A stretch of 64,000 nt of DNA, from contig NZ_FNRX01000003.1 in assembly GCF_900105195.1 (NCBI RefSeq), positions 1 through 64,000 of the forward strand, given 5' to 3'. Shown here piece by piece: positions 18,191 to 20,075 of the stretch. The notes beneath the pieces are model-generated. The model had not been told where the DNA came from. It did no database searches and was given only the letters and a program-made list of their open reading frames with translations. The position numbers and the translations under genes are program-made. Numbering within the stretch: the stretch's first letter is position 1; every line of letters starts with the position of its first letter. The stretch comes from Rhodococcus pyridinivorans. GTDB lineage: Bacteria > Actinomycetota > Actinomycetes > Mycobacteriales > Mycobacteriaceae.

Positions 18191-18222
18191 CCTTCTGTGT
18201 GAAAGGACTCTCAATGATCCTG

Positions 18223-19425
18223 TCAAGCCGCCCCCGCGGTGACCGGCACGGTCGGTTGCCAGGTGCGGTGGTCGCGGAGCAGAGCGTAGAGAACGTCCAC
18301 GCGCCGCCGAGCCAGGCAGATCGTGGCCTGGACGGGACGCTTACCTTCGGCACGTTTGCGCTGATAGTAGGCGCGGGATCGAGGATCGCAACGGACCGCG
18401 GTCAACGCCGACATGTACATCACCCGGCGCAGGCGCCTGCTGTAGCGCTGAGGGGTGTGCAGACGCCCGGTGCGTTTACCCGAATCCCTGGGTCGCGGCG
18501 CCAACCCGGTCCAGGCAGCGAGCTGATCGGCCGATCCGATCAGGGCGGGGTCACCGACTGCGGCAAGGAATTCGGCGCCGAGCCGGAATCCCATACCCGG
18601 CAAGCTCAGGATCACTTCGGCCAGAGGGTGACGGCGAAATCGGGCCTCGATCTCCGCGTCCACGGCCCTGATACGTGCGTCGAGATCGATCACCGCCTGC
18701 GCCAATTCGGCGACCAGTTCGGCAGCGACATCTTCCCCCGGCAACCGCACGGTCTGCGCCTTCGCAGCGGTGACCGCGGCCCGGGCGATCGATTCGGCGT
18801 GGCGCACCCCGGCCCCGGTGAGCATCGTGGCCAGTCGGGCCGCACCGACACGGCGGATCGCTTTCGGTCGCTGGTAGCGGGCCAGCAGCACCACCCAGCC
18901 CCGGTCCGAGGAGATCTGCGCGAGGCGTTCGAGGCCGGGGCAGATCGCGACGAGTTGCTGACGCAGCCGGTTGATGGTCCGGGTACGGTCGGCGACCAGA
19001 TCGGTGCGGTGGCCGGTGAGCATCTGCAGCTCACGGATCAACTCGTCGTCGGGACGCAGAACGGGCAGGTCCGACCGCATCCGGGACTGATCGGCGATCA
19101 CCCGGGCGTCGCGGGCGTCGGTCTTGGCTTCGCCGCCGCGGTAGACCGACGATGCCTGCCACACCGAACGTCCGGACAGGTAGCGCACCGGTTTCCCGGC
19201 GTCGGCCAGCACAGTCAGCAACAAGGTGACGTAGGCGGTGGTCAGATCCACCGTCCACGACACCGTCTCGGCGAGTGCGTCGATCTCGGTGATCACCGCA
19301 CGGATCGTTGCTTCGTCGTTGTCGCATCGCCGCGAGAGCACCACCGTCCCGGAGGTGTCGAGTACGCATATCCAGTGGTGTTCTTTGCCGACGTCGACTC
19401 CTGCCCACAGTTGCGAACCGGTCAT
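18223..19425 (-). CDS. IS110-family transposase (DEDD/serine recombinase type)
   Basis: A 400-residue protein from the ATG at 19425, with GAGGAAA 5-8 bases upstream. The N-terminal DEDD RuvC-like domain opens with LWAGVDVGKEHHWICVL and has KTDARDARVIADQ. The C-terminal transposase-20 domain has SLPGMGFRLGAEFLAAVGDP and AAWTGLAPRPRDSGKRTG, with the conserved Ser in the DSGKR segment. Family enzymes work with an RNA made from the element's non-coding end (established for IS621-like IS110 members). Nothing is missing, so the element may be active. Confidence 0.9.
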   Translation of the reverse strand: MTGSQLWAGVDVGKEHHWICVLDTSGTVVLSRRCDNDEATIRAVITEIDALAETVSWTVDLTTAYVTLLLTVLADAGKPVRYLSGRSVWQASSVYRGGEAKTDARDARVIADQSRMRSDLPVLRPDDELIRELQMLTGHRTDLVADRTRTINRLRQQLVAICPGLERLAQISSDRGWVVLLARYQRPKAIRRVGAARLATMLTGAGVRHAESIARAAVTAAKAQTVRLPGEDVAAELVAELAQAVIDLDARIRAVDAEIEARFRRHPLAEVILSLPGMGFRLGAEFLAAVGDPALIGSADQLAAWTGLAPRPRDSGKRTGRLHTPQRYSRRLRRVMYMSALTAVRCDPRSRAYYQRKRAEGKRPVQATICLARRRVDVLYALLRDHRTWQPTVPVTAGAA

Positions 19426-19632
19426 CGGATTTCCTCGTTTTCGCTTGTGTTCCGGCCTGGCCCCGATGGACGCCTCCGCCGGCATTTCCTTAAACAAGCG
19501 ATCATGCGCAGATCTCAATCAGCGGTCCGAGGTGTCCAGACAGGTCGGGTGGCCAGTCCTTTCAAGCCCCACTCGAGAGTGGGCAAACCTTATGCAGCCT
19601 CGCCCGGCCCGCCCGGGTTACAGCTCAACGTA
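19426..19632 (-). ncRNA. Candidate bridge RNA region of the IS110 element
   Basis: This 207 bp non-coding end lies upstream of the transposase, where IS110-group elements encode their bridge RNA. It contains strong hairpins, such as CCCACTCGAGAGTGGG at ~19569-19584. The word AGTCCTTTCA at 19555-19564 is the reverse complement of the target flank TGAAAGGACT at 18200-18209, a 10-of-10 match, as expected of a target guide loop. A second possible donor-side guide, ATTGAGA, is present but short. No clear guide for the other target half was found. Confidence 0.55.
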
Positions 19633-19676
19633 ACTCTCACGAAGTAACTGCACCTACGAACTTAAGGACCCCTGTG

Positions 19677-20075
19677 ATGTCTCGCAATACCTCGATGCGG
19701 TCGCTACCTCGTAGCGTGGCCCGTGCTGCGTCCCTGCTGTCGGCCACGATCGGCACGGTGTTGCTCACCGCCGGTACCGCCTCGGCTCAGACCGACAATC
19801 CACTCGACGGAATCTCCCCTGATCTGGGGGTGTTCGGTCCTACGTTCCAGAGCACCTGGTCGCGGATTGCGGGCGGTATCTGGGGTGCGGTCCTGGCGGT
19901 ATCCGCAGTCAACCTGATCATTTCGCTCTACAAGATCCGTAAGGCTCGCGCCGGGGGCTACCAGAGCGAATTGAGCGATTCGATGGATTCGGCCAAGACC
20001 GCTGGCGTGGCGTTCGGTTGCGTGGCCGGAGCCGGGATCATCGTCGGCGCCATCTTGTTCGTCGTCAACGGCTAA
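19677..20075 (+). CDS. Small pilin-like (VirB2/TrbC-type) membrane protein
   Basis: A 132-residue protein from the ATG at 19677 (AAGGA 8 bases upstream). It has a signal peptide ending near TAGTASAQT (residues ~37-40), then two hydrophobic stretches (about 60-80 and 108-130) joined by a charged loop. A signal sequence plus two helices in ~90 mature residues is the outline of T4SS pilin or core-channel subunits of the VirB2/TrbC kind. It lies first in the second block of transfer genes, ahead of VirB8-, VirB6-, VirB4- and VirD4-like genes. Confidence 0.6.
   Translation: MSRNTSMRSLPRSVARAASLLSATIGTVLLTAGTASAQTDNPLDGISPDLGVFGPTFQSTWSRIAGGIWGAVLAVSAVNLIISLYKIRKARAGGYQSELSDSMDSAKTAGVAFGCVAGAGIIVGAILFVVNG

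Follow-up and report, generated by a model that had tools for sequence, protein, structure and literature searches.

A 64,000-nucleotide stretch of Rhodococcus pyridinivorans DNA (contig NZ_FNRX01000003.1; hereafter the window) harbors an IS110-group element that very probably moves as a circle and carries a bridge RNA programmed to a translation-initiation region. We consider the class of target a more interesting point than the match between guide and target itself.

The assignment of the element is based on its transposase (recombinase), which contains the Pfam domains DEDD_Tnp_IS110 (PF01548; E 2.9e-48) and Transposase_20 (PF02371; E 1.1e-22) and reaches 243 bits with the NCBIfam model "IS110 family RNA-guided transposase" (cut-off 140). 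The PDB sequences that it matched were those of ISCro4 and IS621, and no others. Upstream of the gene lies a non-coding left end of about 244 nt, and the right end measures about 20 nt; this is the layout of the IS110 group. The host genome has one copy of the element, while near-identical copies occupy different places in other Rhodococcus plasmids and genomes. Transposases that are 72 to 85% identical were found in, among other carriers, Rhodococcus zopfii, mycobacteria, and Tsukamurella. A search of viral contigs gave no relative, and among phages there was one weak match, to a single phage present as two records. At two loci, L010 (pMchErm55) and L008 (p1-JPH1), the transposase lacks a listed coding gene and may be decayed; the plasmid gene table leaves out pseudogenes.

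The ends of the element could be read from four sister plasmids (L184, L185, L192, and L194) that carry the natural empty site, CTTCTGTGTGAAAGGACCCCTGTGATG, with the target stretch TGTGTGAAAGGACCCCTGTGATG. Compared to these empty sites, the window reads CTTCTGTGTGAAAGGAC, element, CTTAAGGACCCCTGTGATG, showing that the ends are two copies of AAGGAC (GTCCTT on the element strand), one on each side. Insertion at this short common core was precise, with zero bases lost relative to all four empty sites. Bases 18200 to 18208 pre-existed in the target, while base 18209 is the element's own. In copies elsewhere, the element extends to CCTTAAG (CATTAAG in L010; both as read on the element strand), which lies at about 19661 to 19669 in the window. 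The initial annotation had placed the boundaries at 18200 and 19639, with a repeat of ACTCTCA as the junction. We dropped these boundaries in favor of the AAGGAC pair: the inner ACTCTCA (19633 to 19639) falls inside the element, and this inner copy (TGAGAGT) is present in just 7 of 23 related copies. At L152 and L010, one base of GTC[C]TT is not the same at the left and the right junction, and the direction of the difference is opposite in the two loci; a heteroduplex core would produce such a pattern. The features of the element and its target are listed in the table.

Table. Positions in the window of the element, its predicted RNA, and its target.
Feature	Position	Strand	Basis or remark
IS110-family element	18203..19669	-	Empty sites compared with the window; 1461 bp plus repeated AAGGAC, both ends
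Right-end AAGGAC copy	18203..18208	.	Belonged to the original Shine-Dalgarno target
Left-end AAGGAC copy	19664..19669	.	Serves the downstream gene as Shine-Dalgarno after insertion
IS110 transposase (recombinase), 400 aa	18223..19425	-	Pfam and NCBIfam
Target gene (GTG 19674 or ATG 19677)	19674..20075	+	Element lies inside its Shine-Dalgarno
Structured part of predicted bridge RNA (target and donor loops)	19467..19613	-	Alignment A2, 38 relatives
Target-loop closing stem, 5' arm	19596..19613	-	Helix 1 mapped on the window
Left target guide (LTG) GCATAAGGTTT	19585..19595	-	Guide-flank test, mapping
Hairpin between the two target guides, in target loop	19566..19584	-	Fold, mapping
Right target guide (RTG) TTGAAAGGACT	19555..19565	-	Pairs with AGTCCTTTCA, the match of the initial annotation; matching, mapping
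Target-loop closing stem, 3' arm	19539..19554	-	Helix 1 mapped on the window
Donor loop	19484..19521	-	Mapped from alignment
Probable left donor guide TGATTGAGATC	19511..19521	-	Resembles right-end CATTGAGAGTC; TGATTGAGA in 23/23 copies
Probable right donor guide TTTAAGGA	19487..19494	-	Pairs with left-end TCCTTAAG, one G-U; 23/23 copies
Right-end donor motif CATTGAGA	18209..18216	-	23/23 copies
TTGACA, -35-like	18221..18226	-	17 nt from TAAGTT in the would-be excised circle
TAAGTT, -10-like, left end	19659..19664	-	Sequence
Antisense open frame, 477 codons	18214..19647	+	Downstream of the host Shine-Dalgarno; not conserved

An alignment of 38 left ends (alignment A2) yielded a consensus fold with a stem and a first loop containing an inner hairpin, followed by a second stem and a second loop; this predicted layout is that of a bridge RNA. 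Changes on both sides were observed in 20 of the 31 base pairs. Paired cells amounted to 96.3%, compared to 86.8% in shuffled controls and 36 to 55% in slid controls, in a set that had been hand-picked from 62 left ends after the guide matches were known and from which divergent ones were mostly excluded. When the 24 unpicked left ends were aligned afterwards, they formed 0.58 to 0.97 of the consensus pairs, with 20 of the 24 at 0.81 or higher. The four loci that formed 0.58 to 0.65 of the pairs (L058, L070, L085, and L091) may be misaligned. Folded as a single sequence, the window RNA displayed no excess stability over shuffles (z -1.06), and the alignment was therefore needed to obtain the fold. 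The curated families of Rfam 15 gave no match in the window or in the region 19420 to 19680.

The initial annotation had reported that bases 18200 to 18209 (TGAAAGGACT) match a segment of the non-coding end. The complementarity is exact, the 10 bases being the reverse complement of 19555 to 19564, and the hairpin described next to them is present (19568 to 19583). Of 2000 shuffles, performed by a home-made segment swap intended to preserve dinucleotides, 7 attained a 10-nt match when the 214-nt non-coding end was compared with 24 nt of flank. The match is thus improbable by chance, as had been claimed, but on its own it is suggestive and not conclusive. The proposals that a bridge RNA is encoded in this end and that the match is one of its target guides are supported: the end folds into the predicted two-loop RNA with covariation, in which the match occupies the position of the right guide and has the right side of the target as its partner. 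It had also been stated that no guide for the other half of the target was obvious, and here a left guide was found in addition to the match. Finally, the comparison with other insertions that had been suggested turned out in favor of this interpretation: same or altered guides fit their own targets, and a same guide unrelated to its flanks was not seen among 23 copies.

This comparison was performed on a near set of 23 distinct insertions, corresponding to 23 of 25 rows. The two excluded rows, both from L021, had a contig end containing N and lacked the right flank; L180 and L181 were supplied as well and yielded no row. The RTG paired with its target at 9 of 9 positions in 19 of the 23 copies, with one mismatch in three copies and three mismatches in L010, which has an additional guide base. 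In one fixed register, the best of six tried, the LTG formed 6.43 Watson-Crick pairs out of 13 with its own left flank compared to 4.19 with the flanks of the other copies, and none of 100,000 permutations reached this own-flank fit (n = 23). Similarly, with one copy per LTG type (n = 14), the own-flank value was 6.64, the mean of the permutations being 4.36 (0 of 50,000 permutations). The LTG of the window fits its own site partially, with 7 Watson-Crick and 2 wobble pairs out of 13. In 21 of 23 copies, the final base of the LTG and the first C of the core region make a U-G wobble. Furthermore, five of the 23 LTGs (L158, L154, L007, L151, and L179) pair with CAT, and those of the window and L149 have a CAU positioned opposite CAC, which complements a GTG start, with one wobble. 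The window and L156 may represent one old insertion before orthologous genes, and the sites are thus not fully independent.

Both guides also matched their own flanks in a wider set, comprising 122 of the 149 loci with a transposase match (27 were dropped due to contig ends, partial genes, or the lack of an anchor). Among its 80 distinct guide pairs, the own match was 7.30 nt versus 5.44 for the RTG and 7.05 nt versus 5.83 for the LTG; none of 20,000 permutations reached either the RTG-right flank or the LTG-left flank value. These longest matches were unanchored and some lie off the junction, the LTG match of the window among them. At the junction itself, exact guide-flank stretches of up to 11 nt occur, as in L054, where the RTG (AAGCATCTCGA, target strand) matches its own flank, and in L025, where the LTG does (CGTAGGCGGCT). 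The LTG and the RTG therefore covary with the target both in the 23 near insertions and in the 80 wider guide pairs. A pattern-based parse of the guides (109 parsed, 40 not) had misplaced the LTG and was dropped.

In the near clade, RTG and right target hardly vary. This could also be reconciled with recognition of a Shine-Dalgarno-like site by the protein alone, the RNA match being a by-product of sequence shared by the ends of the element and its target. However, the LTGs vary and track their own left flanks, the RNA fold covaries, and in the wider set the RTG of L054 and the LTG of L025, among others, are exact matches to their own flanks. Changes of the RTG are also matched: an altered RTG fits an altered target in L008 (GAGAGGACT/AGTCCTCTC) and in L152 (GAAATGACT/AGTCATTTC). 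A further matched change, AAAGGATT/AATCCTTT, was found in five copies and sits in bases kept by the element, so that target-side covariation of the RTG in the near set comes down to two copies. Recognition by the protein alone is in our opinion highly improbable. We give just as little credence to the idea that the guides do not choose the site but are copied from it, the target loop being rewritten from the flank after insertion. Several distant relatives do agree with the one site known for them across spacer bases without obvious function, with 11 of 11 matches in, for example, L025, L035, L039, and L066, as rewriting would produce. On the other hand, the window-type element is found in six different sites with its LTG unchanged, which is predicted by selection of sites with a tolerant guide and not by rewriting at each insertion. 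Site choice by the guides of a bridge RNA is hence the reading that we retain.

The RTG reads as a Shine-Dalgarno sequence (GAAAGGAC). In the near clade, an ATG or GTG start that heads an open frame of 40 codons or more was found 3 to 12 nt past the core in 16 of 23 sites, compared to 16.3% in the control; for ATG alone, the values were 12 of 23 and 7.0%. The other 7 of the 23 sites had no qualifying start codon. After insertion, GGA directly follows the CTTAA of the element in 21 of 23 sites, and the gene therefore retains a Shine-Dalgarno. The host genome contains 52 occurrences of GAAAGGA-N4-9-ATG (one being the element's own end) versus 11 of the reversed pattern and 10 of a GTA variant, and this excess indicates that it is a real Shine-Dalgarno form here. 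A count of GAAAGGA-N-TGA (37 matches) was contaminated by ATGA and GTGA and left unused. We regard the targeting of translation starts in the near clade, with an IS900-type placement in constant orientation between the start codon and the Shine-Dalgarno, as firm.

Targeting of translation starts is likely for part of the wider clade as well. There, RTGs were called Shine-Dalgarno-like if they contained AGGA, GGAG, GAGG, or AAGG, a loose rule that admits doubtful guides (e.g., L040, L038, and L061). With such an RTG, a start codon was found in 17 of 20 rows of alignment A2 against 23.4% in the control, whereas the rows first left out gave 3 of 9, near their control of 20.8% (pooled, 20 of 29). 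When the RTG was not Shine-Dalgarno-like, the counts were 4 of 7 (control, 18.4%) and 5 of 14 (control, 22.4%), pooled 9 of 21. The start codon lies exactly 8 or 9 nt off, under the LTG, in 15 of the 27 far A2 rows. The test is partly dependent in the wider clade, the left junction having been placed there by the LTG match. Eleven near-clade A2 rows, for which the free junction search mostly landed inside the element or off the junction, were excluded here and are dealt with by the fixed-junction tests; the near-clade row L029 was omitted from the count of the 24 added rows. In L046, L163, and L165 the junction seems misplaced, and these loci were counted as misses. An earlier version of this test relied on a second pattern-based parse in which the LTG was misplaced. 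It gave, at an LTG score of at least 9, 11 of 36 with a Shine-Dalgarno-like RTG (control, 22.7%) and 5 of 24 for the others (control, 21.4%), and was set aside and redone with alignment columns.

The following sequence of events would account for these observations. The complete element would excise as a circle, whose junction would create the promoter TTGACA-17-TAAGTT and thereby drive transcription of the bridge RNA. In the first loop, the LTG would bind the bottom strand of the target's left side and the RTG the top strand of its right side, while the second loop would pair with the joined ends of the element itself. These joined ends and the target would then be recombined by the transposase at the short core inside GTCCTT, tentatively at its CT. 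Since the RTG has the Shine-Dalgarno sequence, it would bind the Shine-Dalgarno complement, with the LTG over the spacer and, in some copies, also over the bases complementary to the start codon. AAGGA would be left at both ends, and the gene would keep its Shine-Dalgarno. A guide complementary to the ribosome-binding and start region would thus explain how the element lands before a gene without breaking it. With respect to the second loop, the donor-guide segments match the element ends in 23 of 23 copies and are invariant, so that the match can give no covariation signal. The putative promoter has the form TTGA[CT]N at a spacing of 17 in 23 of 23 copies, and it resembles the promoter across joined ends described for IS110 elements in the relevant parts of PMC11208160.

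The choice of site could also serve the antisense frame, the host Shine-Dalgarno expressing a hed-like protein as proposed for IS900. The arrangement in the window does resemble the one reported for hed: GAAAGGACTCTCAATG makes a Shine-Dalgarno and an ATG at the right end, and the antisense frame is open over its 477 codons. However, 13 of the 23 copies have a frame of more than 470 codons, and in the other 10 it is closed after 10 to 23 codons (for L152, the script used an earlier ATG). Moreover, the ATG lies within CATTGAGA and is also explained by recognition of the donor. An antisense protein would account for a benefit to the element and not for its targeting, and it is compatible with a bridge RNA. 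We therefore consider it unlikely that the frame explains the choice of site, and a general function of a hed-like frame that is closed early in 10 of 23 copies is unsupported. Guidance by the bridge RNA remains our preferred explanation.

IS900 of M. avium subsp. paratuberculosis reportedly targets translation initiation signals, as the title of a 1997 paper by Doran has it. The targeting by IS900 is thus already in print; the bridge-RNA basis is what we propose here. The target motif printed for IS900, CATGNNNNNNTCTCCTT, has the same layout as the target described above, namely, the complement of a start codon, a spacer, and the complement of a Shine-Dalgarno (as given in the passage of PMC8141618 that prints the motif). 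IS900 also has a similar size (1451 bp) and an antisense open frame; the likeness of the targets was drawn from the printed motif. We think it reasonably probable that part of a large actinobacterial IS110 clade (Rhodococcus, Mycobacterium, Pseudonocardia, Amycolatopsis, Streptomyces, and other relatives) carries bridge RNAs that are naturally programmed to translation-initiation regions, the RTG being equal to the Shine-Dalgarno and the LTG covering the spacer and the start-codon complement, and that this is the cause of the targeting noted in 1997. Our confidence was lowered to this level because the 24 added left ends gave a weaker start-codon result. By analogy, the targeting by IS900 may thus have a guide-RNA mechanism. 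No paper linking the translation-start targeting of IS900 to a bridge RNA was found in a search that left out preprints and most subscription journals, and the matching passages of the literature, including those of PMC7823733 and PMC3706429, did not draw such a link. Among the matched passages of PMC11208160, the phrase "translation initiation" occurs only in a reference.

If this reading is true, many near-gene, non-coding sites would be available to such elements, and a Shine-Dalgarno would be rebuilt at both ends, which suggests how they may settle beside genes and leave them unbroken. An old descriptive finding, the insertion of IS900-like elements at translation starts, would become a guide-encoded mechanism that is directly testable. 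It would also provide bridge RNAs from nature whose right guide measures about 9 to 10 nt, and a case of a guide RNA aimed at a functional motif common to many genes and not at a repeat.

As far as the system is described in the relevant parts of PMC11208160 (Durrant 2024), IS621 shares with our element the PF01548 and PF02371 transposase, a long left end upstream of the gene, a two-loop RNA with the same roles and strands for the LTG and RTG, scarless insertion, and a promoter across the joined ends, the RNA and the promoter both being predicted in our case. However, IS621 targets a REP element instead of a translation-initiation region, and its RTG pairs over 4 to 7 nt instead of about 9 to 10, some orthologues having longer RTGs (same parts of PMC11208160). 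The transposase is also longer, with 400 aa compared to 328 in the solved IS621 chain. The seekRNA of IS1111 is likewise made from a non-coding region and has two target-matching segments but, unlike here, the RNA is usually downstream of the gene, the guide order is reversed, and there are subterminal inverted repeats (sections of PMC11187229 on this RNA). ISMav6 on the M. avium plasmid pMAH135 (L181) has a transposase that is 45% identical. Its RTG, GAAAGGAAT, is complementary to its own right junction, ATTCCTTTC, and AAGGAAC and an ATG lie across on the other side. Its LTG differs, and the match of this LTG to the left flank is weak by eye.

A Streptomyces group (L025, L027, L035, L038 to L041, L044, L049, L054, and L067), with LTGs such as TTCATGCGGCT, has RTGs that end in GCTT and are mostly not Shine-Dalgarno-like. 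This group seems to have other targets, and another target class may thus exist within the same family. Six copies of one IS110 element with the LTG TTTCAGGCCGCT are present in Streptomyces sp. SM10 (L028, L030 to L033, and L037) and provide natural material for testing the use of the guides; the left junction reads TCAGGCCGCTCTACC in L028, L030, and L032, the copies for which flank sequence is available.
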